Assembly (NCBI GenBank): GCA_016935365.1
Contig: JAFGRB010000138.1
Span: 1-64,000, forward strand
DNA from: Deltaproteobacteria bacterium
GTDB lineage: Bacteria > Myxococcota > B64-G9
DNA length: 64,000 nucleotides
Direction of reading: 5' to 3'
Part shown: in pieces, positions 1-16,473 of the stretch
Layout of the letters: each line of letters opens with the position of its first letter
Numbering within the stretch: position 1 is the first letter of the stretch
The notes under the pieces: model-generated
Seen by the model: only the letters and a program-made list of their open reading frames with translations
Told to the model about the DNA's origin: nothing
Database searches by the model: none
Program-made: the position numbers and the translations under genes

Positions 1-234
1 GAAATGGCACGCAATCACGATGATTGACCAAGCTACGCGTTCCCCTCCCTCGGCCTTCGGCCGGTCCCTCCCGCCAGGGGAGGGACGGACAACACTCTGT
101 GCACATTGATGCCTCGGCCAGGCCCATTCTTTTCTTGTGTGCTGAGATGTGTCTAAATGAGGCTCCAGGGTTCGGAGAGGAGTCAATCGTGAGAACGGGC
201 GTGTGCAACAACCTCGTCGGCAAGGTGACCCGTG
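1..234. other. Leading intergenic region with stem-loop and diverged repeat
   Basis: No credible gene is seen here. Bases 64-72 and 78-86 form a perfect 9-bp stem with a 5-base loop; neither strand has a T-run after it, so it looks like an interspersed palindrome rather than a terminator. Bases 117-152 match bases 48533-48568 at 30 of 36 positions, which suggests a diverged copy of the same intergenic repeat. Confidence 0.5.
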
Positions 235-1047
235 ATGCAGTCGGTCATGATTCTGGACTCACTCTATGCGCTCAAATTGAAGCAGGGCGATCGGGTGCGC
301 CTGCTGGTCAAGGCCGTGAGTGTGGTGCTCGATAAAAAGAGCCCCGCCGTGGACCCGATCCGGCACGAGCGCCAGAAAGGCCGGCTGCGAAGCTTCCTGA
401 ATCGTCACCGCCGCCCGCGCCTGACGGCGCTGCTGATGGTCACCGCCACAGGGGCCGTCGGCCTGCTGGTCTCATTCCTCCTGCTGAGGATCGGTCTGGC
501 TCTGGATGCCCCGGTCCTCCGGGGCCTGGTCTGGCCGCTCGTGCGCTGGCCCCTGGCGGTCATCGTGGCGTACCTGGCCTTCCTGCTCATGGTTCGCCTG
601 TGGATCCGACATGAGACCCACCGGGGGACCGTGGCGCGGGCCCTGCTCGGCGAGGAGCCGGAGCCCGACCCCTGCTCCGGGGCCAAGGACAGCACCCGTT
701 CCCAGACCCTCGACGGACTCGACATCGGATTCGGTGACGACGAGCTCTCGGCTATTCTGTTCCTGCTGCTTGCAGCGGTCGTCGCGTTGGGCGCGGGGGT
801 GTACGTGGTGGTGATCGCGCCGGAGCTTCTGACCGAGCTGCTGCTCGACGCCGCGGTGAGCGCCGGGCTATACCGCCGCCTGCGGAAGACCCCGGGCGGG
901 GACTGGTTCTCGACGGCCTGGCGCCGCACGCGCATGCCCTTCCTCCTGGTGCTCGGGTTATTCACACTGGCCGGGCTGCTCGTGAAGTTCGCCTTTCCCG
1001 AGGCGCACAGCCTGCGCGAGATCCTGCACAGCCTGGGCGGCGAGTGA
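235..1047 (+). CDS. Integral membrane protein of unknown function
   Basis: A 270-aa protein I do not recognise. It shows four hydrophobic stretches, at about residues 63-90, 99-123, 171-195 and 234-252. A basic N-terminal region (residues 41-62, rich in Arg and Lys) precedes the first one. An acidic cytoplasm-type loop at about 138-170 separates the second and third. No catalytic motif or signal peptide is visible. The ATG at 235 is preceded by AAGGTG with good spacing; a GTG three bases upstream is also possible. The gene converges on the kinase gene that ends at 1120, with about 70 bases between them and no obvious terminator. It could be an envelope component, but nothing in the sequence gives a function. 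Confidence 0.7.
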   Translation: MQSVMILDSLYALKLKQGDRVRLLVKAVSVVLDKKSPAVDPIRHERQKGRLRSFLNRHRRPRLTALLMVTATGAVGLLVSFLLLRIGLALDAPVLRGLVWPLVRWPLAVIVAYLAFLLMVRLWIRHETHRGTVARALLGEEPEPDPCSGAKDSTRSQTLDGLDIGFGDDELSAILFLLLAAVVALGAGVYVVVIAPELLTELLLDAAVSAGLYRRLRKTPGGDWFSTAWRRTRMPFLLVLGLFTLAGLLVKFAFPEAHSLREILHSLGGE

Positions 1048-1119: not shown

Positions 1120-4100
1120 CTAGTCTGCGGTTTTGCAGTCGTGATCCCGGGGGGGCGTTCTCAGCAATAGACCGTGCTGCCAGACCGCGGGCGTGCTCGC
1201 CCAGACCTGCTTCAGCATCGAGCAGTAGCTGGACTCGAGCGCTGCCAGATCGATGCTCGCATGTCCACCCTGCTCGGACACGACGTGCAGGCGTCCTCGG
1301 TGAACCACCATCTGTTCGATCGATCCGTTCAGCCTCTGGCTGTAGATGTGACGACCCAGGCGATACGCCCAGATGTCCAGCTGACCGTCGGCGTGCCCGA
1401 CGGCCATCAGACCGGCGGGTAGATCCAACAAGCTGGAAACGGATCGGTGGTGCACCGGCGAGAGCGAGAAGCCGGGCGGTAACCCGGACGCACGCCTGGG
1501 CAGGAGAGCGACGTGGCCGGATGCCTTTCCCTGGATGATCCACTCGGCGGTCGACAGGATCGCCGTCACGTCTTGCTCTGCAGGGTAGGCGGTTTTCTTC
1601 TTGCCGGTCGAGTCGAATGAAGAGATTTCGCCCCCGGCGGCCACGAGCAGATCGCCGCCGTCCAGGCCGAGCGCGGATGACTCGACGAGCGCTTCCCAGC
1701 GCAGCTCGCATTGCTGGTCGATGAGCTGGACCCTGCTCGGGCACCGGACGGCACAACCTGCGGGCGTCGCCTGGATCTCGAGCGCGTCCTCGATCTCGAT
1801 CCGGCACAGACTCCGATCGGAGACCAGGTCCCACGCCTCGATGAAGCGGTCTGGATTCAATGCCCACAGTCGCTGCCGGGTGCCGTGCTGGGAGACGACC
1901 AGCGCGTCCTCGGCGATCGCGGCTCGCCATTTTCGCTCTGAGCGCGCGGATCGGGGAGTGCCTTCCGTCAAAAACCAGCCGAGATGGGTGAAGAGCTCGG
2001 GTTCCGGGGCCTTCACGAGCACTCCGCGCCAAAATGGTCGTCCGGTGCTCGCTTCCCATGTCCGCACGACGCCGTGCTCGTCTGCGCTGATGACGAATCG
2101 ACCATCGTCCGTGAATCGAAAGCTCTGGCCGCTCGCCTGGTGACCGCGTAGAAGACGCCGAGAGCCGGTCTGTAAGTCGTGGATCCATCCGTTTCCGTTC
2201 GCGCCGATGCCCCCGAGTCGCCCGCCATCGGGATCGAAGGTGATCACGAAGACAGGGTCGTCGCCGGGCAGTTCTTGCTCCAGCGCGCCGCGCTTCAGGT
2301 CCCATACGATGACCTGGCCGTCCTGCCCTCCAGATGCGAGTCGCCGGCCATCCGGAGAAAACGCCAGGCAGTTGGCGACCGCGGAGGCGCCTCGCAGCGC
2401 CTTCCACGGCTCACCGCTTTCGGCGTGCCAGAGACGGATCGCCTTGTCCGAATCGCTTGCGGCCAGCAGTCGGCCATCCGGGCTGTACGCCACACCGAAG
2501 AACCGCTCGGCCTCTCCGCGAAGCGCGTGCAGTTGGATGCCGCTTTCCACGTCCCAGATTCGCACAGCACCGTCGAAGCCCGCGCTGGCGAGACGACGGC
2601 CTCGCGGCGAGAACGCTGACGAGTAGACCACCGAGTCGTGTCCGCTCAGCACCCTGCGCTCGGCGCCTGTCTGCATGTCCCAGATCCGAACCGTATGGTC
2701 GAAGCTCGTCGAGGAAAGCAGGCGCCCGTCCGGGCTCGGGGTGGTGCTCACGACGCTTCTCGTATGCCCGCGAAGCGAGTGGACCTCCTGACACGAGAAG
2801 ACATCCAGGATGCGGATGCTGTTGTTTGGACCGAGAGCGGGCAGATGGATGCCTGCAAAGCGCAGGGGCGAACTCATGCGGCTCGTGTCACTCAGGATCG
2901 AGATGCGCGGAGAGCCTTCCTTCAGGGACCAGAGATGCAAGACCCGGTCAGCGATCGTGGCGAGCAGGCTGCCGCTGGGATCGAAGGCGACACGGGTTGC
3001 TCCGTTCGCATGCATCTCCATTTCCTGCCGGCCGGTCGCTACATCCCAGATGCGGATCGTGTCGTCATGGCCGCAGCTGGCCAGTCTACGGGCGTCCGGG
3101 CTGAAGGCGAGGTCGAAAACGATGCTCCGATGTCGCCGCCAGGTCCTTCTACCCACGCCGCTCGAATCAAACAGCCAGATCTCACCATCGCGTCCACCGG
3201 ATGCGATCCAGCGCCCGTCGGCGCTGTACTGGAGGGCGGCGATGGATCCCGTCGGATCGCTCAGCACTCGCCCTGGCTGGTCGGTTTTCCATCTCAGGAG
3301 CCGGATGCTCCCATCGTCTCTGCCCAGGGCCATCTCTTCCCCGTCGGCGCTGAGCGCGAGAGCTCGGACAGCCGGCGAGCGGCCGGGCAGGACGCGACGC
3401 CGGGTCGCATCGCGCACATCCCAGATGAGGACGGATCCGTCAGAGCAGCGGGAAAACAGCGCGCTCGCGTCGGTGGAGAAGAGCAGATATTGCACCGGTG
3501 CAGGGTGTCCGCGGAGCGGGCTGAGCGAGCCGCTCTGGTTGTCGCGTAGCCATACTATGTCTCTCTTGTCCCACAGCACGTAGGCCACTTGCCTTTGATC
3601 CGCAGACAGGCACCAGTCGAAGGTGCTTTTTTCTAGCGGACCGCCGGGAAAAGGAGTCGCTTGGAGAGAGGCGGAGCGTACATCGGCTCGATAGCTGCGC
3701 GAGAGGCTCCTTGCGACGACCGTGTCGCCGCGGGAGAAGTCCAGCTGTTCTAGCATCTCTCCGATGTCGACGCGCCAGCGCTCGGGCTCCTGGCCCAGTC
3801 GCCACCAGAGCGCGCGCCCGAAGCTGGAGTCCTGCACCTCGAGCGCACTTCTGAGCTTGGCCCGCGACTCGAGTAGTTCGTTTCGCAAATACGCCGACCA
3901 GGCTCCTTCGAGCTGAGACTCCGCCCAGCGAGCGCGAAGCTGGCGGCTCTGCTCTCGATAGGCGAGGGCAAAGAACGCCGCCACGGCGCCCGCCAGCGCC
4001 AGGACGAGGATGGCCAGGCGCTTCCGCCGGGCCGATCGTCGCTGGCGCTTCAGGCCCGCCTCGAGGAACTCGGTGACAGGGCCGGATGGGCTGTTTGCGA

Positions 4101-6345
4101 TGTGCTCGATCTTCTGGCGCGCCTGCCGCAGCGCATCCCCTTTCCAGACCTCGTCCGCCGGCCGCCCACGCTTGATCCACAGCTCGGCCGCCTGGCTGGC
4201 CTCGGCCAGGAATGCCATCTCCTCACGGCTCTCGTCGATCCACTGCCTCAGCTGCCCCCAGTGATCGATCAACGCCTCGTGGACGAGCTCGATGGCCGAC
4301 TCTGCTTCCTCGTCGCGGCCTTTCTTCTTGATCGAGATGAGCCGCGCCTCGACGAGGCGGTCCAGGACCTCGCCTGCACCTGCGGACAGGCCCGCGAGCG
4401 CCTCTCGCTTGGCGATCACCTTGCGTGTGCTCTCGGCTGTGACCAGGCGCAGTACTATTTCTCGGGCGAGTCGGAGCCGATCCCAGGAGAGACCCTCCAG
4501 TACGCTGTCCGCGTGATCGGCCAGAGCGCCTGCGACGCCTCCCATCTTTTCGTACGTGACGCGGAGAAGAAGGCGGCTTTGGGTGTCTCGCAAGCTCCAC
4601 ATGACCTGGATGGCGAATTGAAGCAAGGGCAAGCAGGCCATCTCATTCTTGACCGAGGAGACCATCTCCCGTGGGATATCCGGATCCTCGAAAGCATAGC
4701 CGGCCAGCGCCAACGGCTTGGTCAAGGTGCCCTCGAGAAGATCAGGGGAGGGGCTGCGCATCACGAAGACCCGGCTCAGGGCATGCCTCGCCTCGGGGCT
4801 CAGGGCCAGGCGAACCAGGAAGTCGTCCCGGAGGGTGAGGACGACGCGGACCGGGCCGAAGGGGTCGTCCGCCGCCGAGCAGAGCGCCTGCATGAATGAC
4901 GCACGCAACGACTCTTCCTGGACCAGCGTATGGAGCTCCTCGAGCTGATCCACGACGAGCAGGACCTTTGCATGCTCTCTCCGGGCCAGATCCTGTAGCT
5001 CGAGCGAGAGCGTGCCGGGCTGTCGAGAGAGCGATTTGGCCAGCTCGTCTTCTCTCGGTCTTCCCGGAGAAGGCGGGCTCGATGGAGCTGCGCGTTCGAA
5101 TCGTCCGGAGAGAACGGGCGAGGGCACGGTGGACTTTTCCGTCTCCTCTTCGACCGCGCTCTTCTCTGCGCGGAAAGCCAGGCTGCTGCTCTGGCTATCT
5201 CCGGCCAGCAAGCGGGAGGCCAGGTTCTGAAAGGGCTTGGAGCCCGGGCGCATGGAGAGCACGATCCAGGTGCCCTGTTCTCGCAAACGTGGGATGACAC
5301 CTGCATGGATGAAAGAGCTCTTGCCCGATCCGGACGGCCCGACGATGGACCCGATGGCCTCGTGCCGCATCCACTCCAAAAAGGCATCGATCTCCGTCTC
5401 GCGACCGAAGTAGAACTCGGCGTGCCGTTCGCTGAAAGGAAGAAGCCCTCGAAACGGTCTTGGATCTACCTGGTCGCGGATGCTTCGTCTCGACAGCATG
5501 CTCTCCAGCTCTTCCGCCAGCCTGGCGGCGCTCGGTCGCATCGCGGCATCCTTGAGCAGACAGCCATCGATCAACGAAGCCAGATCTCTCGGCAACTCGG
5601 CGTAGGCGGCGACTGGGGGGACCGGGTCGGGGGAGTTGATCGCCCGGGCATACGATTGCGCGTCGCGCTCCCTGTACGGCCTTCGACCTGTCACCATCGC
5701 ATAGAGAATGATGCCCAGCGCCCACACGTCGGTGGCACCACTGCCCTCTTCCCCCCGCCAGCGCTCGGGCGCCATGTAGGGCGGCGTGCCCATGACCCGG
5801 GGCCCCGAGTCGGAGTCCCGAGCGGGCTCTTCCGCGTTCAAGTCCAATGCCTTGGCCAGCCCGAAGTCCACGACGAGCAGGCGGCCGTTCCTGTCGACCA
5901 AGATGTTCTCGGGCTTGAGATCTCGGTGGAGCACTTTGTGGCGGTGTGCCTCGGCCAGCGCGCTGGCGATGGCATGACCGACACGGATCGACTCGCGAAC
6001 GCCGAGGCGCTCTTGCCGCATTCTCTGCCCGAGGGTTTGGCCTTCCAGGTACTCCAGGACGAGATACGGTCGCCCGCGGTGCTCTCCGGACGAGAACACG
6101 GTGACGATGTGGGGATGGCTGAATCGAGCCGTGGTCCGGGCCTCGATCAGGAAACGCTCGATCGCCTCGCGATCTCCAAGCGCCTCGGGATCGACCACCT
6201 TGAGGGCCACCCGCCGACCCAGGCCCGTGTCGCGTGCGAGGTAGACTTCTCCCATGCCGCCTCGTCCCAAGAGGCGGTGGATCTGGAACTGATCGACTTG
6301 CTCGCCTTCCGCGAGGAACTCGACTCGCTCAGATCGCTTGGTCAA
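1120..6345 (-). CDS. Serine/threonine protein kinase fused to nSTAND NTPase and WD40 repeats
   Basis: A 1741-aa multidomain signalling protein. Residues 20-285 are a Hanks-type kinase with a GRGGMGEV loop, VALK lysine at 49, HRDLKPEN at 140-147 and DFG at 160-162, so it looks active. Residues 296-600 match the nSTAND1 pattern (FRGLLPF start, FGRE, P-loop GPSGSGKS at 336-343, Walker B LLVVDQLEE near 462-470). One hydrophobic segment lies at about 775-795. The rest is WD40 repeats, at least twelve, enough for two propellers. With one membrane span, the propellers would lie outside the cytoplasm; that is inference. Translation starts at a TTG: an in-frame TAG lies two codons upstream and a GAGG sits 7 bases before it. 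It is the last gene after two lipoprotein/FadL pairs, 46 bases from the nearest porin gene. Confidence 0.93.
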   Translation of the reverse strand: MTKRSERVEFLAEGEQVDQFQIHRLLGRGGMGEVYLARDTGLGRRVALKVVDPEALGDREAIERFLIEARTTARFSHPHIVTVFSSGEHRGRPYLVLEYLEGQTLGQRMRQERLGVRESIRVGHAIASALAEAHRHKVLHRDLKPENILVDRNGRLLVVDFGLAKALDLNAEEPARDSDSGPRVMGTPPYMAPERWRGEEGSGATDVWALGIILYAMVTGRRPYRERDAQSYARAINSPDPVPPVAAYAELPRDLASLIDGCLLKDAAMRPSAARLAEELESMLSRRSIRDQVDPRPFRGLLPFSERHAEFYFGRETEIDAFLEWMRHEAIGSIVGPSGSGKSSFIHAGVIPRLREQGTWIVLSMRPGSKPFQNLASRLLAGDSQSSSLAFRAEKSAVEEETEKSTVPSPVLSGRFERAAPSSPPSPGRPREDELAKSLSRQPGTLSLELQDLARREHAKVLLVVDQLEELHTLVQEESLRASFMQALCSAADDPFGPVRVVLTLRDDFLVRLALSPEARHALSRVFVMRSPSPDLLEGTLTKPLALAGYAFEDPDIPREMVSSVKNEMACLPLLQFAIQVMWSLRDTQSRLLLRVTYEKMGGVAGALADHADSVLEGLSWDRLRLAREIVLRLVTAESTRKVIAKREALAGLSAGAGEVLDRLVEARLISIKKKGRDEEAESAIELVHEALIDHWGQLRQWIDESREEMAFLAEASQAAELWIKRGRPADEVWKGDALRQARQKIEHIANSPSGPVTEFLEAGLKRQRRSARRKRLAILVLALAGAVAAFFALAYREQSRQLRARWAESQLEGAWSAYLRNELLESRAKLRSALEVQDSSFGRALWWRLGQEPERWRVDIGEMLEQLDFSRGDTVVARSLSRSYRADVRSASLQATPFPGGPLEKSTFDWCLSADQRQVAYVLWDKRDIVWLRDNQSGSLSPLRGHPAPVQYLLFSTDASALFSRCSDGSVLIWDVRDATRRRVLPGRSPAVRALALSADGEEMALGRDDGSIRLLRWKTDQPGRVLSDPTGSIAALQYSADGRWIASGGRDGEIWLFDSSGVGRRTWRRHRSIVFDLAFSPDARRLASCGHDDTIRIWDVATGRQEMEMHANGATRVAFDPSGSLLATIADRVLHLWSLKEGSPRISILSDTSRMSSPLRFAGIHLPALGPNNSIRILDVFSCQEVHSLRGHTRSVVSTTPSPDGRLLSSTSFDHTVRIWDMQTGAERRVLSGHDSVVYSSAFSPRGRRLASAGFDGAVRIWDVESGIQLHALRGEAERFFGVAYSPDGRLLAASDSDKAIRLWHAESGEPWKALRGASAVANCLAFSPDGRRLASGGQDGQVIVWDLKRGALEQELPGDDPVFVITFDPDGGRLGGIGANGNGWIHDLQTGSRRLLRGHQASGQSFRFTDDGRFVISADEHGVVRTWEASTGRPFWRGVLVKAPEPELFTHLGWFLTEGTPRSARSERKWRAAIAEDALVVSQHGTRQRLWALNPDRFIEAWDLVSDRSLCRIEIEDALEIQATPAGCAVRCPSRVQLIDQQCELRWEALVESSALGLDGGDLLVAAGGEISSFDSTGKKKTAYPAEQDVTAILSTAEWIIQGKASGHVALLPRRASGLPPGFSLSPVHHRSVSSLLDLPAGLMAVGHADGQLDIWAYRLGRHIYSQRLNGSIEQMVVHRGRLHVVSEQGGHASIDLAALESSYCSMLKQVWASTPAVWQHGLLLRTPPRDHDCKTAD

Positions 6346-6391
6346 TGACTACCTCGGTGGCTCAGGAGACGGTCTTTCGCACCCGAGGGCC

Positions 6392-7837
6392 TCACAGCCG
6401 GGCGGTGAAGCTGCCGGCCAGGATGTGGCTGCGGGTGGTGTAGGTCCCGTTTGCCGCGCCTTCGGGGTTGAGCTCGTCGCCCACCCCGACCTGGTTGTCC
6501 TTGCGGGCCTCCCAGAGCGCCAGCATGTAGCCGATGTCGAAACGCCACCACGAGCCGCGGTAGCCGGTGCCGAAGGCGACGAGCTGGCGCTGGCCGTCGG
6601 GCAGCGACGGGTCGAGCGTCTCGGCGGGCATCGGCGAGGACACGGTCCCGTAGCCCAGCCGCAGCGGCAGGCAATCGAACAGGACGTACTCGGCGCCGAT
6701 GGAGAGCTGCCAGCTCTCGTGCCAGCGCTTGTCGATCGGGGCGGCCGCGTCCGCCAGGCCGGGGCAGCTCCCCTGCTGGCTGCACAGGAAGCGCAGGGCG
6801 AGCTCGTCGTAGCTCTGGAAGAAGGCCACGTAGAAGTCGACCGCCACCGTGAGCGACTCGACGCCGGTCCAGGCGAGGCCCATGTTCATGTGCAGCGGGA
6901 GATCGATCGTCACCTTGCCGCGGGTCGTGTCGGGGAAGGTGATCTGGCTGTCCAGCAGCGAGCGGGCCTTCGCGCCGGCCGGGTTGAAGGAAAAGCGCGC
7001 CTCGCCCTCGAAGGGCATGCGGATCGCTCCGCGCTCGGCGAAGCCGCCGCGGACCGACAGCCCGAAGGCGAGCTGACCGGGCCAGGCGGCGTGCAGCGCC
7101 AGGTTCCAGCCGTGGCTCGTGGCCGAGCCGTCCATGACCATCTCACCCCAGGAATCCTGGATCTCGCCCCGCGAGAGCAGCTCGGCGGCCCGCAGGTCGA
7201 GCCGCTTGGCCAGGTGGGCGGTGCCGTAGACGAAGGTGTAGCCGGCCGCGAGCGACAGCTCGAGCGTCTCGCGAAGGCCGAGCAGGCGGGCCAGGTCCAC
7301 GGCGACGACCGGGTTGTTGAAGAAGGTCTGGATCTCGATCTCGTTGGAGATGAAGCGCCCGTCCCACTCGCCCGGCCAGTACGTGCCGAGCCCGAAGGGG
7401 TTGTTGAGCCCGTAGCCGATGGCGATGCCCCAGTCCGAGAGATTGTAGGTCGCGTAGAGGTGGATCGGGTTGAAGCCCTTGAGCTTGGCGTCGGTGGAGT
7501 GCTCGCCGTCGTTGACCGGCTCGAGGCCGCAGTGACCCTCGGGGGTGCAGGTCAGGTAGGTCCGGTCCGATTCCCCGGCCGCCTCATAGGAGATGTAGGG
7601 CAGGATGCCCGTCACGCCGAGCTGGAGCTGCAGGCCCTCGAGCCGCGAGATCACGGCCGGGTTGAAATAGACCGCGCTCGGATCCTCGGCCGTGGACGCG
7701 CTGGCGCCGGCCATGCCGGTGACGGATGCGTTGTGCTCGTAGAGCAAGAAACCGCCCGCACGCACGCGGGAGGCGGCGAGCAGCGCAAAGAGGAAGGAGA
7801 GGCAGCACACGATGCGACCCGCCGGCTTCACGCGCAT
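6392..7837 (-). CDS. FadL/OmpP1-type outer-membrane transport protein, copy 2
   Basis: A 481-aa outer-membrane beta-barrel of the FadL/OmpP1 family, which passes hydrophobic substrates such as fatty acids or aromatics. It has a signal peptide of about 27 residues ending before GGFLLYEHNAS, the family N-terminal hatch motif, followed by an AEDPSAVYFNPA stretch and alternating barrel strands to the C-terminus. The start chosen is the ATG at 7837 with GGAGGT five bases upstream; a longer frame adds ten residues but has no ribosome site. It is a close paralogue of the protein encoded at 9001-10410. Both have a lipoprotein gene directly upstream, so the pair was duplicated. It lies 46 bases before the kinase gene. 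The substrate is not known. Confidence 0.9.
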   Translation of the reverse strand: MRVKPAGRIVCCLSFLFALLAASRVRAGGFLLYEHNASVTGMAGASASTAEDPSAVYFNPAVISRLEGLQLQLGVTGILPYISYEAAGESDRTYLTCTPEGHCGLEPVNDGEHSTDAKLKGFNPIHLYATYNLSDWGIAIGYGLNNPFGLGTYWPGEWDGRFISNEIEIQTFFNNPVVAVDLARLLGLRETLELSLAAGYTFVYGTAHLAKRLDLRAAELLSRGEIQDSWGEMVMDGSATSHGWNLALHAAWPGQLAFGLSVRGGFAERGAIRMPFEGEARFSFNPAGAKARSLLDSQITFPDTTRGKVTIDLPLHMNMGLAWTGVESLTVAVDFYVAFFQSYDELALRFLCSQQGSCPGLADAAAPIDKRWHESWQLSIGAEYVLFDCLPLRLGYGTVSSPMPAETLDPSLPDGQRQLVAFGTGYRGSWWRFDIGYMLALWEARKDNQVGVGDELNPEGAANGTYTTRSHILAGSFTARL

Positions 7838-7919
7838 GACAGACCTCCAAGGAATGCCAGCATACACCCCCGGAGTGCATATGCAACACGGAAAGCCGCC
7901 CGCGTCGGATGTCTGATGC

Positions 7920-8954
7920 CTAGTCCTCGGCCCGGATGATGCACATGTAGACCAGACCGGCCACGCTCATCGCCTTGTAGAGATCGTCGGGGAAGGTCTC
8001 GCCTTGGGCCTCGGCCGTCAGGGTCTGGATGTTGAACGGGCCGGGGATGATGTACATGCCGGTTACCGTGGTGGAGCTGGCGGTCATGTCGAACGAGGCG
8101 TCCGGGTAGAAGATCGGGTCGATGGGAGTGCCGTCTGCCTGGGTCACCTCTGCGCCCTGGATCGGCGCGCCCTCAGCGTCCACCACGAAGCCCAAGACCA
8201 GCCCCTCTTCCGAGTCGATGTCGGGGTGCGCATCGAGGTTGTCCACCAGCACTCCGGGCACGGCCCAGACCGGGGGCGTCTGGTCGATGCACAGCTTGTC
8301 GGATGCCCCGCCGTAGGCGGCCACGCCGGTCGCGGTCGGGAAGTAGCTGTCACCGGCGTCGTCGGCCACCAGCACCAAGCCAATGTGGGCGTCCGAGACG
8401 TCGAAGCAGTCGAAGTGGAAGCTTCCGAGCGCGTCCGAGCGGGTCTCGGCCAGCGGCGCGCCGTTGCCGACTATCACGTCCAATTGGCTCCACGCGGCCA
8501 GATCGATCGCGATCGGGGTGCGCACGAGGTCGGTCACCGCGCCTGAGACCTCGATGAAGCCCGCCTGTCCGGCGCAGCACTCCGGTCGGCAGGTGCCGGT
8601 CCCGTCGTCTTCGTAGCCGGGATCACAGGTACAGATCACCAGACCGTATATGTCGGACAAGCACCAGGTCTTGTGCGCCTCGGTGCACGGGTTCGGGTCG
8701 CAGGGATCCTGGGCGCAGAAGTCCATCAGGCAGATCTCGCCAGCAGCGCAGCACAGCTCGCCGCAGGCGACGTGATCGCAGGCGCACTGGCCGTCCTCGC
8801 AGGTCGCGTTTTCGCCGCACGTCCCACAGGGCTCGCCGCAGATCGGATCCGGGCCGCACTCGCGACCGCTGCAGTCCGGCTCGCAGGTGTCGCCGGAGCA
8901 GGCGGCCATGAACACGGCGAGCACCGCAGCGAGGGAAAGACACGAGGCTCTCAT
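7920..8954 (-). CDS. Cys-rich exported lipoprotein with regulatory-like beta domains, copy 2
   Basis: A 344-aa lipoprotein with a signal peptide and lipobox ending at FMAAC (Cys near residue 19). Residues 20-130 are dense in Cys and resemble EGF-like modules. The remainder is beta-rich with patterns like carboxypeptidase regulatory-like domains (IEVSGAVTD, GFVVDAEGAPIQGAEVT). The C-terminal two thirds are closely related to the lipoprotein at 10496-11347, but the extra Cys-rich N-terminal part is unique to this copy. The ATG at 8954 has GGAGG just upstream. It is followed after 82 bases by the FadL-type gene at 7837. A role as the surface or periplasmic partner of that porin is likely from the repeated pairing, but is not proven. 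Confidence 0.8.
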   Translation of the reverse strand: MRASCLSLAAVLAVFMAACSGDTCEPDCSGRECGPDPICGEPCGTCGENATCEDGQCACDHVACGELCCAAGEICLMDFCAQDPCDPNPCTEAHKTWCLSDIYGLVICTCDPGYEDDGTGTCRPECCAGQAGFIEVSGAVTDLVRTPIAIDLAAWSQLDVIVGNGAPLAETRSDALGSFHFDCFDVSDAHIGLVLVADDAGDSYFPTATGVAAYGGASDKLCIDQTPPVWAVPGVLVDNLDAHPDIDSEEGLVLGFVVDAEGAPIQGAEVTQADGTPIDPIFYPDASFDMTASSTTVTGMYIIPGPFNIQTLTAEAQGETFPDDLYKAMSVAGLVYMCIIRAED

Positions 8955-9000
8955 TGCCCACCTCCTTCGTGGTTGCTGCGTCTCGCGATGTGGCAGGGCG

Positions 9001-10410
9001 TCAGATGGCCGCGGTGAAGGTCAGGGCCAGCAGGTGGGCCTGGGTCGTGTAGGTGCCGTTGGCCATGCCCTCGGGGTTGAGCGCATCGCCGATGCCGACC
9101 TCGTTGTCTTTCTCGCCCTGCCAGAGCGCCAGCATGTAGCCGATGTCCAGCTTCCACCAGCTGCCGTGGTAGCCGGTGCCCAGGCAGATCAGATCGCGGC
9201 GGCCGTCCGGGAGCGAGGGGTCGTAGGTCTCCGAGGGCACGGGCGTGGTGACCATGCCGTAGCCGACCCGGAGCGGCAAGAAGTCGAAGAGCATGTACTC
9301 GGCGCCCAGCGAGAGCTGCCAGCACGAGTGCCAGTTCTTCTCGATGGTCGTGTCGAGCGCGCTGCTGCAGGAGCCGTCCGCGACGCAGTCGAAGGCCATG
9401 TGGAGCTGGTCGTAGCTCGAGAAGAAGACCATGTAGAAGTCGAGGGCGATCTTGAGGTTCTCGACGCCCAGGTACGCCACGCCCGTGTTGAAGTGGTAGG
9501 GCAGGTCGATGGTCACCGCGCCGGTGGTCGCATCCGGAAAGACCGTGCCCGCGGCGGCCAGGAAGTCCCTGGCCGCCTGGCCGCTCTCGGTGGGGAAGAT
9601 GAACTTGGCCGTGCCCTCGAAGGGCATGCTCACGCCGCTTCGCATCGAGAAGCCGAAAGAGACCAGGTCCGGCCACTCGGCGTAGAGGGCGGCGTTGAAG
9701 CCGTGGCCGATGGCGTCCCCGGTCATGCGCATCTCGCCCCAGGGATCGACGATCTGGCCGCCGCTCAGCGCCTCGGCCACCCGGAGGTCGATGCGCTTCG
9801 AGAGCCGCGCCGTGCCGTAGACGAACATGTAACCGAGCGCCACCGAGAGCTTGAAGTGCTCCTTGAAGCCGAATAGCTTGGCCAGGTCCACGGCCACGAC
9901 CGGGTTGTTGTAGAAAGTCTGGATCTCGGTCTCGGTGCCGATGAAGCGCCCGTCCCACTCGCCCGGCCAGTAGGTCCCCAGCCCGAAGGGGTTGTTGAGC
10001 CCGTAGCCGAACGAAAGCCCGTAGTCAGACAGGCTGTAGGTGGCGTAGATGTGGATCGGGTTGAAGAACTTGATCTTGGCGTCGATGGAGTTCATCCCGT
10101 CGTTGATGGGCTTCTCCACCAGGCCGTCTGTGCCCATGTATTGGTAGACGCGGTCGCTCTGACCGGCCGCATCGTAGTGGACGTAGGGCAGGATGCCGGT
10201 CACGCCGAGCTGGAGCTGCAGGCCCTCGAGCTCGGTGATGGCCGCCGGGTTGTAGTAGACCGAGCTGGGATCGCCGGCCAGGCCGGTGCGCGCGTCGGCC
10301 ATGCCCGTGGCACTGGCGTTGTGCTCGTACAGCAGAAAGCCGCCGGCCATCGCCGCCGGAGCGGAAAGCAGCACCAGGGCGACGGTGGCGAAAGCGATGG
10401 TCCGTCTCAT
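9001..10410 (-). CDS. FadL/OmpP1-type outer-membrane transport protein, copy 1
   Basis: A 469-aa FadL/OmpP1-family outer-membrane barrel. The signal peptide ends near residue 22, followed by GGFLLYEHNASATGMAD and the DPSSVYYNPAAI motif of the family. Many stretches are identical to the copy at 6392-7837, for example LEGLQLQLGVTGILPY. The ATG at 10410 has AAGGAG upstream. The gene is separated from the preceding lipoprotein gene by 85 bases that contain a strong intrinsic terminator, and is followed after 46 bases by the second lipoprotein gene. No separate promoter was recognised between terminator and start, so expression probably depends on read-through. Confidence 0.9.
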   Translation of the reverse strand: MRRTIAFATVALVLLSAPAAMAGGFLLYEHNASATGMADARTGLAGDPSSVYYNPAAITELEGLQLQLGVTGILPYVHYDAAGQSDRVYQYMGTDGLVEKPINDGMNSIDAKIKFFNPIHIYATYSLSDYGLSFGYGLNNPFGLGTYWPGEWDGRFIGTETEIQTFYNNPVVAVDLAKLFGFKEHFKLSVALGYMFVYGTARLSKRIDLRVAEALSGGQIVDPWGEMRMTGDAIGHGFNAALYAEWPDLVSFGFSMRSGVSMPFEGTAKFIFPTESGQAARDFLAAAGTVFPDATTGAVTIDLPYHFNTGVAYLGVENLKIALDFYMVFFSSYDQLHMAFDCVADGSCSSALDTTIEKNWHSCWQLSLGAEYMLFDFLPLRVGYGMVTTPVPSETYDPSLPDGRRDLICLGTGYHGSWWKLDIGYMLALWQGEKDNEVGIGDALNPEGMANGTYTTQAHLLALTFTAAI

Positions 10411-10442
10411 GCGAGTCTCCTTGGCCGCCGGGCAGCCGGTGG

Positions 10443-10478
10443 AAAAAAGGCGCGGGGCTGTGTATGCAGCCCCGCGCC
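10443..10478 (-). terminator. Intrinsic terminator between lipoprotein and porin genes
   Basis: On the minus strand a perfect 12-bp GC-rich stem (10467-10478 with 10449-10460) encloses a 6-base loop and is followed directly by six T residues (10448-10443). It lies 18 bases after the stop of the lipoprotein gene at 10496. This is the clearest rho-independent terminator in the window. It would limit transcription entering the downstream porin genes and the kinase gene. Confidence 0.88.
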
Positions 10479-10495
10479 CGGGAAAGCTGTCCAGA

Positions 10496-11347
10496 TCACT
10501 CCTCGGCCTGGATGCTCACCATGTAGACGTAGCCGTCCACGGCCGCGGCCTTGTAGAGGTCGGTGCGGAAGGTCTCGCCTGTAGCCTGTGCCGTCAGGGT
10601 CTGGATGTTGAACGGGCCTGGGATGATGTACATGCCGATCGAGGTGGTCGAGATGGCGTCCAGGCCGAAGTTCTCGTCCGGGTAGAAGATCGGATCGATG
10701 CCGGTGCCGTCCGCCAGGGTCACCGTCGCGCCCTCGATCGGCGAGCCCGCGGCGTCCACCACGAAGCCGATGATCAGCCCCTCGGCCGAGTCGATCTGCG
10801 GATGGTTGTCGAGGTTGGTCACCAGCACGGTCGGCACGGCCCAGACCGGCGGGGTCTTTTCGATGCACACCTTGTCGGCCGGGTCGTCGCCGTAGGCGGC
10901 CACGCCGGTCACGGTCGGGAAGTAGATCGTGCCGGCATCGTCGGCAAGAAGCACCAGGCCCATGGCGGCGCCCGACACGTCGAAGCACTCGAAGGTGAAG
11001 GTGCCGACCGCATCCGAGGTGGTCTGGGCCAGCGGCACTGCCGTGCCGGTCATGACGCCCAGGCCACTGAGCGCGGTCAGGTCGATCGCGACCGGGTTGA
11101 GCTCCAGGTCCATCACCGAGCCCGAGACCTCGATGTAGCCTTCCTGGCCCGGACAGCACTCCGTGCTACCCTCGACACAGACGTTGTTCTGGCAGGTCAG
11201 ACCCGAATTGCAGCTCCCGTCCTCCTTGCACGCGCAGTCCTTCTCTCCGGGGGTGCACTCCCCGTCGCCGTTGCCGCAGCCGATCGCCAGGGCTAGCAGG
11301 CCCGCCGAGAGCAGTACGCTCAGCGAGATGGTTGCGATCTTCTTCAT
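10496..11347 (-). CDS. Exported lipoprotein with regulatory-like beta domains, copy 1
   Basis: A 283-aa lipoprotein. The signal peptide ends at a lipobox ALAIGC (Cys near residue 24), then a short Cys-rich segment and beta-rich domains with repeated glycine/valine patterns typical of carboxypeptidase regulatory-like folds. It is paralogous to the lipoprotein at 7920-8954: both contain TPPVWAVP, a DPIFYPD segment and GMYIIPGPFNIQTLTA near the C-terminus. The ATG at 11347 has AAAGGAG upstream. It is the first gene of the unit, has a promoter at 11451-11480 and a leader hairpin, and is followed by an intrinsic terminator. That arrangement suggests it is made in excess over the porin downstream. 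The function is unknown. Confidence 0.82.
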   Translation of the reverse strand: MKKIATISLSVLLSAGLLALAIGCGNGDGECTPGEKDCACKEDGSCNSGLTCQNNVCVEGSTECCPGQEGYIEVSGSVMDLELNPVAIDLTALSGLGVMTGTAVPLAQTTSDAVGTFTFECFDVSGAAMGLVLLADDAGTIYFPTVTGVAAYGDDPADKVCIEKTPPVWAVPTVLVTNLDNHPQIDSAEGLIIGFVVDAAGSPIEGATVTLADGTGIDPIFYPDENFGLDAISTTSIGMYIIPGPFNIQTLTAQATGETFRTDLYKAAAVDGYVYMVSIQAEE

Positions 11348-11397
11348 TTCGGTCTCCTTTCAGTCGCGTTCGATGTCCTCGTCGAATCCAACCAAGA

Positions 11398-11428
11398 AGC
11401 TCGAAGCTCCTCTCCCCTGCTTCGAGCT
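11398..11428 (-). promoter_or_regulatory. Leader stem-loop upstream of the lipoprotein gene
   Basis: A perfect 10-bp inverted repeat (11398-11407 with 11419-11428) with an 11-base loop lies in the untranslated leader between the promoter at 11451-11480 and the start at 11347. On the minus strand the loop is purine-rich (AGGGGAGAGGA). It may stabilise the mRNA or bind a regulator. It matches no riboswitch class that I recognise. Confidence 0.4.
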
Positions 11429-11450
11429 CTCTCTTGCCTCGGGACGGAAT

Positions 11451-11480
11451 ACACTAGGCCAGGGGGCTCGGGCCTGTCAA
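11451..11480 (-). promoter_or_regulatory. Candidate sigma-70-type promoter for the lipoprotein/FadL/kinase unit
   Basis: On the minus strand TTGACA (11480-11475) is separated by 18 bases from TAGTGT (11456-11451). The predicted start of transcription gives a leader of about 100 bases before the ATG at 11347. The -35 is perfect and the -10 is weak. Confidence 0.55.
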
Positions 11481-11506
11481 CGAAAAATCGAGAAACGCTT
11501 CCGCAG

Positions 11507-13852
11507 TCAGCTACTTGATGGTTCAATCGCATCGCCTGCCGGCAGCAGCAGCTCGAAGAGTGTGCCAGCCCCCGGCTCGGAGTGGACCTGGATGCGGCCG
11601 CCCGCTTCCTCGACGATGCCGTGGACCGTCGACAGGCCCAGGCCGGTTCCCCCCTCTCCCTCCCGGGTCGTGAAGAAGGGCTCGAAGATGTGCTCGATCG
11701 TCTCTGTGGACATGCCCACCCCGGTGTCGGAGATGGTCAGGCGTGCACAGCGACCCAGATCGCAGTCCTCGGCCTGCTCGAGCTGGATGCGCAGCTTGCC
11801 GCCCTTGGGCATGGCGTCGCGCGCGTTGACGCACAGGTTGACGAGCACCTGCTCCATCTGCTCGCGGTGGCTGAGGATCGGCGGCGTGTCCGGCGCCAGC
11901 TCGACCGAGAGCTGGACCACGGCGCCGAGCAGCCGGCGCAGCATGCTCTCCAGCCCCTCGATCAGATCGACCAGATCGAGCCGGGTTGGTTTGGAGTTCT
12001 GCGGGCGGCCGAAGTCGAGCAGGCGCCGGGTGAGGGCCGCACCGCGCCCGCAGACGCGCTGGATCTCGCCGAGCTGCAAGAGGTCCGCTGGATTCTCCAG
12101 CTGGCGTTCGAGCAGAGCGGTGTAGCCGCTGATGGCGGTCAGCAGGTTGGCGAAGTCGTGGGCCACACCGCCGGCCAGCTCTCCGATGGCTGCCAGGCGC
12201 TGCTGCTGTCGGAGCTGGCGGATCACCTCCCGCTCCTCGGTCACCTCGCGCAGCACCAGGGCCCAGCTTCCCTGGTCGTCGGCCTCGGCATCCTCGCGCC
12301 GCGTGGCCGGGACCGGGTAGGCGGCCACCACGAAGGTCCGGGCGCGGCCCGCATCGTCTTCCTCCAACGTATACGGCCCCCACGCCGAGCCCCGCTCCAG
12401 GTCGAGCCACAGCCCGCCGAGCTGGACCACCGGCTCGGTCGCGCTGGCGCGCAGCATGGGCAGCATGCGCACAGCCGCCGGATTGGCCAGCGAGCAGTGC
12501 CGGTTGGCATCCAGCAGCGCGAGCCCCTCGGGCAGGTGCTCGACGAGCGCTTTCAGGCTCGCCCGCTCGGCTCGCAGGGCGGCCAGGAGATTGGTCTGTC
12601 GCAACCCGATCGCGAGCTGATCGCCCACCTCGACGGCGATCTTCTCGTGCTGGCTGTCGAAAGCGGACCGCCTCGAGCTGGCCAGATGCAAGGCACCCAC
12701 GATCTCGCCACCCGTTCTCAGCGGGACGGTCAGCAGGCTGCGGATGCCCTGATCATACAGGCGCCGGAGGATCGGGACCTCGAGGTTGGCCCGGAGCGTG
12801 AGGTGGCGGGCAGGCGTGCGGATGCTCGTAATATTCGAGAGCGCCGTGATGGGCAGGTAGGTTCCCTGCTCAGGCTCGATCTCGCAGCTGGGCTCCTGGG
12901 AGACCGCCGCGACCAGGGCGCGTTTCCGGCTCTCTTCGATCAGCAGCACGACCGCCCGTTCGCAGGAGACGAGCTTGCGGATCCGCTCGATGGCCGCCTG
13001 GGCGATCTCCTCGCTCGATCGGGCCCCGAGGATGGCACGGTCGACTTCCTGCATCAGGTGCAAGCGCTTGGCATACAGCTGCATGGCCTGCTCGGCCCGC
13101 TTGCGCTCGGTGATGTCCTCGACCGAGCCCTCGTAATAGAGGACCTCGCCCGCGGCGTCGCGGACGAGCCGGGCGGACTCCCGCACATACAGCAGCGAGT
13201 CGTCGCGCCGGATCCAGGCCGACTCCAGCCCGCGGACCTCGCCTTCATCCTCCAGGCGCCTGCGGAACTCGCTTCTGGGGTAGGTGGGGTCGAAGCCCTC
13301 GCGGTGCAGCTCGCCGTCGAGCATCGCGCTCGGCCCGAAGCCGAGCATGCGCAGCAGCGCGGGATTCGCCAGCTGGACTCGGCCCTCGAGCGCAGCGCGG
13401 TAGATGCCGAGAGGTGCGTTTTCGAACAGCGAGCGGAAGCGCTCCTCGCTCTCGGCAAGCGCCTGCACGACACGCTTGCGCTCGCTGATGTCGACCATGT
13501 TGACCAGGACGGCGGGTTCGTCGCGATAGCGCACCGGGGCGGCGCGGACCTCGACCCAGAGGATCTGGCCGTCCTTGCGCACCATGCGGGTCTCGTAGAT
13601 ATCCCGGATACGCTGTCCGGCCATCCGCTCGCGGGCCATGGCGCGGATGGTCTCTCTTTCTGCCGGGCAGACCGGCGCCCACGGATCCAGATCGCGAAGC
13701 TCGTCGGCCTTGTAGCCGAGCAGGTCCAGGAAGGTGCTGTTGGCATAGCAGATGCGCTCGGGCGTGACGATGAAGATGGCGGTAAGCGACTCGTCGAGCA
13801 GGACGCGCAGCGCGGACTCGTCAGGCGGAAAAAAGAGGCAGCTGTCCCCCAT
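11507..13852 (-). CDS. PAS/GAF sensor histidine kinase
   Basis: A 781-aa soluble sensor kinase. The order is PAS (about 13-110), PAS with PAC (about 130-240), GAF (about 255-400), a third PAS-like segment (about 415-530), then HisKA and HATPase. The phospho-acceptor is the His in GGVAHDFANLL. The ATPase has the N box (VNLCVNARDAM), ISDTGVGM and GGTGLGLS boxes. No membrane segment is seen, so it senses cytoplasmic signals through PAS/GAF. The start is the ATG at 13852 with AGGAAGGA upstream; the frame stays open far upstream of this but that part overlaps the divergent lipoprotein gene and is not used. No response regulator is adjacent, so it is an orphan. It ends 160 bases before the lipoprotein gene on the same strand. 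Confidence 0.92.
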   Translation of the reverse strand: MGDSCLFFPPDESALRVLLDESLTAIFIVTPERICYANSTFLDLLGYKADELRDLDPWAPVCPAERETIRAMARERMAGQRIRDIYETRMVRKDGQILWVEVRAAPVRYRDEPAVLVNMVDISERKRVVQALAESEERFRSLFENAPLGIYRAALEGRVQLANPALLRMLGFGPSAMLDGELHREGFDPTYPRSEFRRRLEDEGEVRGLESAWIRRDDSLLYVRESARLVRDAAGEVLYYEGSVEDITERKRAEQAMQLYAKRLHLMQEVDRAILGARSSEEIAQAAIERIRKLVSCERAVVLLIEESRKRALVAAVSQEPSCEIEPEQGTYLPITALSNITSIRTPARHLTLRANLEVPILRRLYDQGIRSLLTVPLRTGGEIVGALHLASSRRSAFDSQHEKIAVEVGDQLAIGLRQTNLLAALRAERASLKALVEHLPEGLALLDANRHCSLANPAAVRMLPMLRASATEPVVQLGGLWLDLERGSAWGPYTLEEDDAGRARTFVVAAYPVPATRREDAEADDQGSWALVLREVTEEREVIRQLRQQQRLAAIGELAGGVAHDFANLLTAISGYTALLERQLENPADLLQLGEIQRVCGRGAALTRRLLDFGRPQNSKPTRLDLVDLIEGLESMLRRLLGAVVQLSVELAPDTPPILSHREQMEQVLVNLCVNARDAMPKGGKLRIQLEQAEDCDLGRCARLTISDTGVGMSTETIEHIFEPFFTTREGEGGTGLGLSTVHGIVEEAGGRIQVHSEPGAGTLFELLLPAGDAIEPSSS

Positions 13853-13966: not shown

Positions 13967-14410
13967 ATGAGGAAGACCGGCACCGGAAGGCAGCTGCTCT
14001 TCACGATCCTGCTCGCCGTTGCGCTCTCGGCCTTCGCGGCCGGCTGCCCGAAGCGCGACCAGCCGCCGCCGACCGCATACGATCCGGAGCTGCTCGCAGC
14101 CGCCCAGCAGGCGGCGGAGGAGGACGCGGCAGCCCAGAACGATGCCGGACCTTCCTCGAACGCGGCGAAGGCCAAGCCGGAGTGCGATCGGGAGCGGGGC
14201 GGCTGCGCCGAGGGCTTTCTGTGCTGGGACTCCTGGTACTGCAAGCGAGGTCTCGAGGACCAGTGCTCGGCTGCGGGCGACAAGCGCTGCCACAAGCGCT
14301 GCGAGACCGATGCGGACTGTCCGGCGGACACACCGCGTTGCGTGGAGAAGCCGATATTCAATGGCTCCGAGCGCGGGATACTGGAGAGGTTCTGTGTCTC
14401 GGGCGAGTGA
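13967..14410 (+). CDS. Small Cys-rich lipoprotein
   Basis: A 147-aa predicted lipoprotein. The signal peptide ends in a lipobox FAAGC (Cys near residue 26). A proline/alanine linker follows (about 30-65), then a C-terminal part with about twelve Cys residues in patterns common in Myxococcota secreted Cys-rich modules (CETDADCPADTPRC). The ATG at 13967 has GAGG upstream. It is divergent from the histidine kinase. Its last 17 bases overlap the start of the glycerol-1-phosphate dehydrogenase gene, so the two are probably co-transcribed. The function is unknown; the Cys-rich part is likely disulphide-bonded outside the cytoplasm. Confidence 0.82.
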   Translation: MRKTGTGRQLLFTILLAVALSAFAAGCPKRDQPPPTAYDPELLAAAQQAAEEDAAAQNDAGPSSNAAKAKPECDRERGGCAEGFLCWDSWYCKRGLEDQCSAAGDKRCHKRCETDADCPADTPRCVEKPIFNGSERGILERFCVSGE

Positions 14411-15791
14411 GCCTGCCGTCCTTTCCGATCGCCTGGAAGACCTGCTGGGCCTGGTGATCCCCTGTAGCTGCGGCCGCACGCACGAGGTCGATCTGCGGTC
14501 TGTCTCGCTTCGCGCCGGCGCGATCGACGAGCTGCCCGATCGGCTGCGGGCGCTGTGGGGCTCGGGCCGGCGGCTGCTCGTACTGGCCGACCGCGTCACC
14601 CGGCAGGTGGCGGGCGAGCGGGTCGAGCGCCTGCTCGCCGCCGACGGCCAGCAATCGCGCACCCTGGTCCTGCCGGACGGAGCGGGCGGCAGGCCGCATG
14701 CCGACGAGGCCGGCCTGGAACGCGTGGAGGCCGCCATCGAGCAGGGGGCAGCCGACGGGGTCGTGGCCGTCGGCGCCGGCACGGTCAACGATCTCGCCAA
14801 GCTGGCCTCCTTTCGGCGCGGGCGCCCTTACGCCGTGGTGGCCACCGCACCGTCGATGAACGGATACACCTCGGCGATCGCCGCCGTCATGCGCGATGGG
14901 CTCAAGCGGACCGTCGACTGCCACCAGCCGGCTTGCGTGATCGGCGATCTGGAGATCCTGGCGCGCGCACCGGCCGAGCTGGTGGCGGCGGGCCTGGGGG
15001 ATCTCGAGTCCAAGCCGACCAGCACGGCCGACTTCCGCCTGGCCGGCCGGCTGCGGGGCGAGTATTACTGCCCGCTGCCGGAGCGCGTCGTGCTGCGGGC
15101 CGAGGCGCGGGTGGCCGAGGCGGCCGAGGCGATCGGAGCCGGGGACGAGGCGGCCATCGGCCTGCTCTGCGAGGCCTTGCTGCTCTCGGGTATCTCCATG
15201 AAGCTGGCCGGCTGCTCGGCGCCGGCCTCCGGCGGCGAGCACCTCATCAGCCATTACTGGGACATGTGCGCGGCCGAGCAGGGGCGCGTGGAGGGCTGGC
15301 ACGGAGCGCAGGTCGGCGTGGCCACGGTGGTGGCGGCAGCGCTATACGAGCGGCTGGCCGAGATCGATCCGCACGAGATCGATCCCGACGCCGTCGTGGC
15401 GGCGCGGCCCGGCAAGGCGCAGCTCCAGGCGGCCATCCGCGAGCGCCACGGCGTACGCGCGTCCGAGGTCGAGGCGGAGTTTTTCGCAAAGCACCTCGAC
15501 GATGACGCCCTGCGCGCCGAGCTCGAATCCTTGCTCGACGGCTGGTCTGCTGTCTGGGACAGCCTGGCGGACGTGCTGCGGACAGCCGCGCGGGTGCGCG
15601 CGATCCTGACAGCCGGCGGGGCACCGGTGACGATGACCGGGCTCGGCCTGACGCCCCGGCACCTGCAGGAGAGCTTTCTGGCCGCGCGCGAGATCCGGGG
15701 ACGGTTCAGCGTGCTGGATCTGGCCGGCGATCTGGGCGTGCTCGAAACGGTGGCCGGGGACGTGCTCGCGCGCTCGGGCTGCATGCGCTGA
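14394..15791 (+). CDS. sn-glycerol-1-phosphate dehydrogenase family protein (EgsA/AraM type)
   Basis: A 465-aa member of the iron-alcohol-dehydrogenase-like superfamily, closest in motifs to AraM/EgsA glycerol-1-phosphate dehydrogenase, which reduces dihydroxyacetone phosphate to the archaeal-type backbone G1P. Seen motifs are the nucleotide loop VGAGTVNDLAKL (about residue 127), ATAPSMNGYTS (about 151) and the metal ligands in GGEHLISHYWDM (about 280) and WHGAQVG (about 302). The GTG at 14394 has GGAGAGG four bases upstream and overlaps the preceding gene. It is longer than typical AraM (about 390 aa), with extra length near the C-terminus. It heads a run with DedA, a histidine kinase and PssA, all but one tied to membrane lipids. 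A related sugar-phosphate dehydrogenase remains possible. Confidence 0.82.
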   Translation: MSRASEPAVLSDRLEDLLGLVIPCSCGRTHEVDLRSVSLRAGAIDELPDRLRALWGSGRRLLVLADRVTRQVAGERVERLLAADGQQSRTLVLPDGAGGRPHADEAGLERVEAAIEQGAADGVVAVGAGTVNDLAKLASFRRGRPYAVVATAPSMNGYTSAIAAVMRDGLKRTVDCHQPACVIGDLEILARAPAELVAAGLGDLESKPTSTADFRLAGRLRGEYYCPLPERVVLRAEARVAEAAEAIGAGDEAAIGLLCEALLLSGISMKLAGCSAPASGGEHLISHYWDMCAAEQGRVEGWHGAQVGVATVVAAALYERLAEIDPHEIDPDAVVAARPGKAQLQAAIRERHGVRASEVEAEFFAKHLDDDALRAELESLLDGWSAVWDSLADVLRTAARVRAILTAGGAPVTMTGLGLTPRHLQESFLAAREIRGRFSVLDLAGDLGVLETVAGDVLARSGCMR

Positions 15792-15799
15792 GGACGGCG

Positions 15800-16468
15800 A
15801 TGCAGGAGCCAGGCCTCGTCCAGTCGGTGCTCGACTTCGTGGCGGCGCATCACGGCGATCTCGGCTTGCTGGTCATCTTTGGATCCTCGCTCATCGAGTA
15901 CGTCTTCCCGCCCTTTCCCGGCGACGTGATCACCCTGTTCGGGACCTACCTCGTGGTCAAGGGCCTGTGGAGCTTTCCATTCGCGCTCGGCGTGACCACG
16001 GCCGGCTCGCTGGTGGGGGCGGGCCTGGACTACGGACTGGGGATCTGGATCGGACGGCGGCTCGATCGCCTGCCTTCCGAGCGGGAGGTGAAGCGCTGGA
16101 CTCCGCTGACGCGCGAGAAGTACACACGGATCGTGGCGGGCTTCCGAAAGCACGGGGTGGCCTACATCGCCATCAACCGCTTCCTGCCGGGCATCCGGGC
16201 TTTCTTCTTCGTGGCGGCGGGCGCTGCGCGCATGCGCTTCTCCCTGGTCATGCTCTTCGCGGCCCTGTCGGCGGTGGTCTGGAACGGCCTGCTGCTCGGT
16301 GTGGGCTACAGCGTGGGCGCCAACTGGGAGCGCTTGCGATCCCTGTTCACCTCGTATACGACTGTGGTCTGGGCCTTGCTCGGCGCGGGCTGCCTGGCCG
16401 CCCTCGGGCTGTGGCTTGTCCGCCGGCGGCGCGCATCGGGCGATGGGCCTCGCGGGCGGGAGGGGTGA
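15800..16468 (+). CDS. DedA family membrane protein
   Basis: A 222-aa DedA/SNARE-associated-type membrane protein. It has the family pattern of a re-entrant segment near the N-terminus (SSLIEYVFPPFPGD) and the signature INRFLPGIRAFFFVAAGAARM-type segment near residues 113-135, with the conserved Arg-Phe-x-Pro-x-x-Arg. About four or five hydrophobic segments follow the usual layout. DedA proteins act as lipid flippases or carriers, for example for undecaprenyl phosphate or phosphatidylethanolamine, coupled to the proton gradient. The gene starts 8 bases after the dehydrogenase stop and its own stop overlaps or touches the next gene. The context with G1P dehydrogenase and PssA fits a role in lipid movement. 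Confidence 0.9.
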   Translation: MQEPGLVQSVLDFVAAHHGDLGLLVIFGSSLIEYVFPPFPGDVITLFGTYLVVKGLWSFPFALGVTTAGSLVGAGLDYGLGIWIGRRLDRLPSEREVKRWTPLTREKYTRIVAGFRKHGVAYIAINRFLPGIRAFFFVAAGAARMRFSLVMLFAALSAVVWNGLLLGVGYSVGANWERLRSLFTSYTTVVWALLGAGCLAALGLWLVRRRRASGDGPRGREG

Positions 16469-16473
16469 TCGCA

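Follow-up and report, generated by a model that had tools for sequence, protein, structure and literature searches.

This locus raises the question whether a large receptor-like Ser/Thr kinase works together with the outer-membrane channels and lipoproteins encoded upstream of it, or whether the two parts are merely neighbours. The whole stretch of DNA that was analysed, 64,000 bp and here called the window, belongs to contig C265 of a 7.74 Mb assembly in 481 contigs. An earlier sequence-only reading had placed five genes on one strand at operon-like spacing, and all five were present as described; a histidine kinase gene upstream of lipo2 was absent from that description. The features of the locus are as follows.

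about 232-1047, plus strand: gene convergent with the kinase gene
1120..6345, minus strand: Ser/Thr kinase–nSTAND1–TM–WD40 receptor kinase, 1741 aa, TTG start
6392..7867, minus strand: FadL1, outer-membrane channel of the OMPP1/FadL/TodX family, orthologous to the second FadL in G007
7920..8954, minus strand: lipo1, probable lipoprotein carrying an additional N-terminal part rich in Cys, a copy of lipo2 that arose in this lineage
9001..10410, minus strand: FadL2, OMPP1/FadL/TodX outer-membrane channel
10443..10479, minus strand: intrinsic-terminator-like hairpin and T-run in the lipo2/FadL2 gap, position conserved in relatives
10496..11347, minus strand: lipo2, probable lipoprotein with two transthyretin-like (carboxypeptidase-regulatory-like) domains
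11451..11480, minus strand: predicted sigma-70-type promoter TTGACA-N18-TAGTGT 5' of lipo2, conserved in relatives
11507..13852, minus strand: PAS-PAS-GAF histidine kinase, upstream neighbour, kept in three relatives

Transcription on the minus strand runs from the histidine kinase through lipo2, FadL2, lipo1 and FadL1 to the 1741-aa kinase, whose TTG start codon is preceded by GAGGT. Counted from the kinase end the intergenic gaps are 46 bp (FadL1-kinase), 52, 46 and 85 bp. With FadL1 and the kinase on the same strand and 46 bp apart, co-transcription is possible, and any co-expression of the kinase and the porins is something that we infer. The operon-like spacing claimed earlier holds as far as the common strand and the gaps of 46-85 bp are concerned, but not for a single unit, as a GC stem of 12-13 bp followed by a T-run is located in the lipo2/FadL2 gap. 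A single five-gene operon was rejected as stated, with lipo2 flanked by a conserved promoter and a terminator.

FadL, the lipoprotein and the kinase-nSTAND half were each searched in 97 genomes and the surrounding stretches were compared, the close relatives in this collection being metagenome-assembled genomes labelled Deltaproteobacteria, Myxococcales or Myxococcota. This gave 17 other FadL loci (L093-L104 and L135-L139) and 14 kinase-nSTAND loci (L109-L122); the counts omit L124-L134, which are on the same contigs as stretches already counted under a genome (G) handle. With the nSTAND query, a kinase-nSTAND gene was found at none of the 17 FadL loci, for which between 251 and 9985 bp downstream of FadL were covered (the short stretches include 251 bp in L101, 1001 bp in L139 and 1370 bp in L094). 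The kinase query matched at one of the 17, L100 (G006 C252), and this was a different protein. Conversely, neither FadL nor the lipoprotein was detected by tblastn at any of the 14 kinase-nSTAND loci. The order FadL-lipoprotein-kinase, which had been proposed as the thing to look for in other genomes, was thus not found and linkage was conserved in neither direction, leaving the suggested functional tie between porins and kinase unsupported.

The large receptor kinase at L100 (positions 6187-12000) is divergent from its FadL. Judged by eye it has a signal-peptide-like start, a propeller-like periplasmic part, a span, an ATPase, a Ser/Thr kinase and a GAF-like end.

Genes for a G1PDH-like and a DedA-like protein border the porin locus of the window as well as those of G007, G005, G001 and G006 C257, and based on this synteny the four relatives carry the orthologous locus; a G1PDH-like gene is also present beside the porin locus of G008 C44. 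The FadL end is covered in all four orthologous loci and the kinase is absent from each of them. In a quick version of the kinase tree (SH-aLRT 84-99 at the relevant forks, with 84-91 at the key ones) the window kinase grouped with a paralogue from its own genome (C290) and with copies from G023, a member of a different family; a separate clade held the kinases of G001, G004, G006 and G007. The histidine kinase is the more conserved neighbour of the lipoprotein-FadL locus, as it is found upstream of the lipoprotein also in G007, G005 and G001. Further upstream in the window (14361-17178) a glycerol-1-phosphate-dehydrogenase-like (Fe-ADH_2) gene is accompanied by genes for a DedA-like protein and a small histidine kinase, and four relatives retain most of this neighbourhood.

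Position alone links the porin side to the kinase side. From these sequence comparisons the window kinase is most likely a chance neighbour of the lipoprotein-FadL pair, seen in one genome, and its relatives elsewhere keep different company. We consider it probable that the two are independent, that is, that an envelope module and an unrelated receptor kinase lie side by side. If instead kinase, lipoproteins and porins formed one operon, periplasmic propellers could respond to the lipoproteins, to what the porins carry or to how the porins are assembled, and Ser/Thr phosphorylation would report the state of the outer membrane. The common strand and short gaps, the predicted periplasmic location of the propellers and a FadL1-kinase gap free of promoter matches and terminator-like sites all fit such a sensor, whereas the lack of linkage in both directions, the four orthologous loci that lack the kinase and the terminator 3' of lipo2 argue against it. 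Moreover, the assembly contains 71 Pkinase matches in 7.74 Mb, a density at which chance alone should fairly often put a kinase next to some gene of interest. A sensor of this kind is improbable and was removed from the account as unsupported.

The porin side contains what is a neater new observation than the kinase. The lipoprotein adjoins FadL at 10 other loci, and in each it lies directly 5' of FadL. Six of these are from the same family (G007, G005, G001, G002, G004 and G006 C257; FadL identity about 54-67%) and four are more distant (L135, L136, L137 and L139; FadL identity 41-43%). No lipoprotein was found at 7/17 FadL loci (L099-L104 and L138), two of which, L101 and L138, end at a contig edge on the relevant side. 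Three loci from more distant Myxococcota (L140, L141 and L142) have a weakly similar lipoprotein-family protein right after FadL, i.e. in the reverse gene order.

A TTGACA-N17/18-TAnnnT pattern was present 73-133 bp before the lipoprotein start in eight loci (window, G007, G005, G001, G002, G004, G006 C257 and G008 C44), which corresponds to 8/15 lipoprotein upstream stretches. As background, 809 kb of strand contained the pattern at 13 sites, of which 8 were before this lipoprotein gene. The strict pattern was found in none of ten further cases, namely six other lipoprotein genes together with L108 and L140-L142 (distances measured from profile-match starts and not from start codons), which suggests that the predicted promoter belongs to the close family only. 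The window copy lipo1 has no such pattern upstream and no terminator in the lipo1-FadL1 gap.

A GC-rich stem followed by a T-run was found in the lipoprotein-FadL gap of all seven same-family first pairs, four by a strict scan, two by a terminator scan and the one in G004 by folding only; the generic terminator scan probably missed the latter due to a bulge in the stem. Over about 815 kb of strand the strict scan returned 8 sites in all, 4 of which were in the seven lipoprotein-FadL gaps. The sequence of the stems varies between genomes, and no stem was found in the 7-15 bp lipoprotein-FadL gaps of L135, L136, L137 and L139. In the window about 33 nt separate the end of the stem from the FadL2 start, which probably leaves no room for an ordinary promoter between the two, and FadL2 would thus most simply be made by read-through.

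Both promoter and terminator are predictions from sequence. The layout promoter-lipoprotein-terminator-FadL was seen in the window (10443-10479 and 11451-11480) and also in L093-L098 and L106. Its conservation in this uncultured Myxococcota family suggests that the stoichiometry of the two proteins is set by partial termination. A literature search found no description of the locus or of a lipoprotein-terminator-FadL module, which is not proof that none exists.

FadL1 and FadL2 matched PF03349 along the whole protein (135 and 159 bits, with a cut-off of 29.7) and are thus members of the OMPP1/FadL/TodX family. They resemble FadL/TodX structures (3dwo, 1t16, 3bs0 and others), and a profile of 14 FadL sequences matched 3dwo with an E value of 2e-16 as well as the structures of E. 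coli FadL. For lipo2, a Cys at position 24 after a hydrophobic leader, followed by a Cys-rich stretch, was common to all nine aligned members. The residues before the Cys match the lipobox consensus only loosely, for which reason the protein is called a probable lipoprotein. A model of the lipoprotein (pLDDT 70) had two domains, residues 67-173 and 188-283, and fold comparison gave a middling resemblance (Z up to 8.2) to transthyretin-like or carboxypeptidase-regulatory domains. Matches to Pfam CarboxypepD_reg were below the cut-off, and the best hit in a profile search of the PDB was a SusC-type N-terminal domain at E 0.16.

The sequence-only reading had spoken of duplicated porin/lipoprotein pairs, which proved wrong as a history. 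FadL1 grouped with the second FadL of G007 (SH-aLRT 100) and lipo1 and lipo2 were sisters (SH-aLRT 98), which points to two duplications at different times. According to these trees the FadL copies are older and the additional lipoprotein copy, lipo1, arose in the window lineage; duplication of the lipoprotein-FadL pair as a unit was rejected on the FadL and lipoprotein trees.

In the mechanism that we propose, the sigma-70 promoter would drive expression of a probable lipoprotein with two transthyretin-like domains, the terminator 3' of lipo2 would stop most transcripts and, if it is leaky, read-through would yield smaller amounts of the FadL-type channel. The cargo of this channel is presumably a hydrophobic compound, and the lipoprotein would be its envelope partner, in excess over FadL. 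Such a module suggests a previously unrecognised lipoprotein partner of FadL that is made in excess by partial termination. In gene arrangement this resembles AupA-AupB, described as an alkane uptake operon of Marinobacter in which a FadL-family outer-membrane protein is encoded together with an envelope partner, sometimes in several copies (PMC5989066). In the parts of that description consulted, AupB is an inner-membrane protein encoded 3' of AupA after an 11-nt gap, whereas in the window a probable lipoprotein is encoded 5' of FadL with a terminator in between.

The kinase itself agreed well with the earlier description of an active-looking kinase joined to an nSTAND domain and one membrane span within 1741 residues. 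Its parts are as follows.

5515..6288, minus strand: kinase domain, residues 20-277, catalytic motifs intact
4156..5457, minus strand: nSTAND1 NTPase domain, residues 297-730
3961..4017, minus strand: single membrane span, residues 777-795, strongly positive N side
1249..3747, minus strand: about three propellers of WD40 type (residues about 867-1699) and, after them, a conserved tail that contains Cys1708 and Cys1737

The catalytic motifs found were K49 (VALK), HRDLKPEN, DFG and APE. The match to nSTAND1 (PF20703) reached 306.4 bits against a Pfam cut-off of 27.1, with a Walker A motif (GPSGSGKS) and a Walker B-like stretch, and the protein is thus assigned to this family; every NCBIfam match to the kinase was below its own cut-off. 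WD40 matches (Pfam) extended from about residue 867 onward. At least twelve WD40 repeats had been proposed and the number was exceeded in an AlphaFold2 model of residues 797-1741 (pLDDT 81), in which about 80 strands made up about 20 blades, equivalent to three propellers. The closest fold match in the PDB was 2ymu, a highly repetitive propeller.

The 15 residues before the span contain 8 Lys/Arg and those after it 4, and the N side was the more positive one in 9/9 proteins (the window kinase and eight relatives that passed a motif filter). When nine C-terminal halves were aligned, Cys1708 was kept in 7/8 and Cys1737 in 6/6 of the rows that had a residue at the position; the sole row without Cys1708, L112, had no residue at the position of Cys1737. 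A pair of tail cysteines kept or lost together would fit a disulfide and hence the periplasm. Both lines of evidence favour the earlier prediction, and the WD40 propellers most likely face the periplasm.

With an intact Pkinase domain and a WD40 array C-terminal to a single span, the protein falls among transmembrane receptor Ser/Thr kinases with WD40 arrays. Such kinases have been reported for Planctomycetota (PMC11032199), and the arrangement of kinase, span and periplasmic WD40 array is to that extent already known. As far as the consulted parts of that report go, they share the N-terminal cytoplasmic Pkinase domain, a usually single span and a C-terminal WD40 array, mostly predicted by DeepTMHMM to be periplasmic in the TM-containing kinases, and they show lineage-specific expansion, likewise seen here. 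The window protein differs in having about three propellers and an nSTAND1 domain between kinase and span; nSTAND does not appear in those parts of the report (PMC11032199). The window kinase is most likely an independent periplasm-sensing receptor kinase of this published kind that landed behind the porin locus. The C-terminal propellers would bind a protein or envelope ligand in the periplasm, the signal would cross the single span to the nSTAND NTPase, which may oligomerise with ATP, and the oligomer would bring kinase domains together for trans-phosphorylation and subsequent Ser/Thr phosphorylation of putative cytoplasmic targets. With the porin connection set aside, what is left is a kinase-nSTAND1-TM-WD40 subfamily with apparently periplasmic propellers and a conserved disulfide candidate.

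Recent recruitment of the kinase in the window lineage may be compatible with its non-conservation elsewhere. One could imagine that the kinase was recently recruited to the lipoprotein-FadL locus by read-through and that its three propellers, with a disulfide-locked tail, monitor the lipoprotein or FadL precursors in transit; we regard this as improbable. If true, this would make the kinase the Ser/Thr-kinase equivalent of an envelope stress sensor.

A different alternative to an independent receptor kinase is a STAND-type immune or conflict receptor, in which invaders or damage to the envelope would be recognised by the propellers, with the kinase domain as effector or relay. STAND immune receptors are cytoplasmic, and here the predicted span sets the propellers outside the cytoplasm. 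Propellers that diversify rapidly have near-identical blades, whereas the present ones are alike to 55% at most. Beside the kinase, whose neighbouring genes encode porins, lipoproteins, a histidine kinase and a membrane protein, there was neither an adaptor domain nor an effector or defence gene, and PADLOC defence models matched none of five neighbouring proteins. The earlier hint of phage defence survives as a family resemblance only: PADLOC kinase models did match, as would probably be the case for most bacterial Ser/Thr kinases, and the candidate model C3a189 covered kinase and nSTAND (residues 23-812). Also in favour of an immune role, Apaf-1 was among the propeller fold matches, the nSTAND1 family is expanded in G004, and predicted conflict systems are the setting in which nSTAND1 was defined (PMC8195603). 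The window protein has the nSTAND1 domain in common with the NTPases of such systems, from which, as described in the parts consulted, it differs by the lack of a death-like or EAD adaptor, by spanning the membrane and by a neighbourhood with no sign of the conflict type (PMC8195603, PMC10907252). Taken together, an immune role is unlikely, and an independent periplasm-sensing receptor kinase remains the preferred reading.

An FHA-sigma54 activator is a plausible output for such kinases. In an ORF-based comparison G001 and G007 were the only cases (2/14 kinase loci) in which an activator of this type was convergent with the homologous kinase. None was seen beside the window kinase, and in the genome of the window matches to the FHA part and to the AAA part of the query were mostly at separate places. 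As an output partner of the window kinase the activator was rejected, being not adjacent and found at two kinase loci only.

At the two loci concerned, L113 (G007 C4) and L114 (G001 C5), the homologue convergent with the activator has the kinase-nSTAND-WD40 architecture, and G001 also has a second kinase, with a PD40 propeller, whose gene overlaps the start of this homologue by 4 bp. In G004 there were 35 nSTAND1 matches, mostly in proteins of 1000-1600 aa and spread over many contigs, with 1 to 6 in other family members (none in G003), a lineage-specific expansion.
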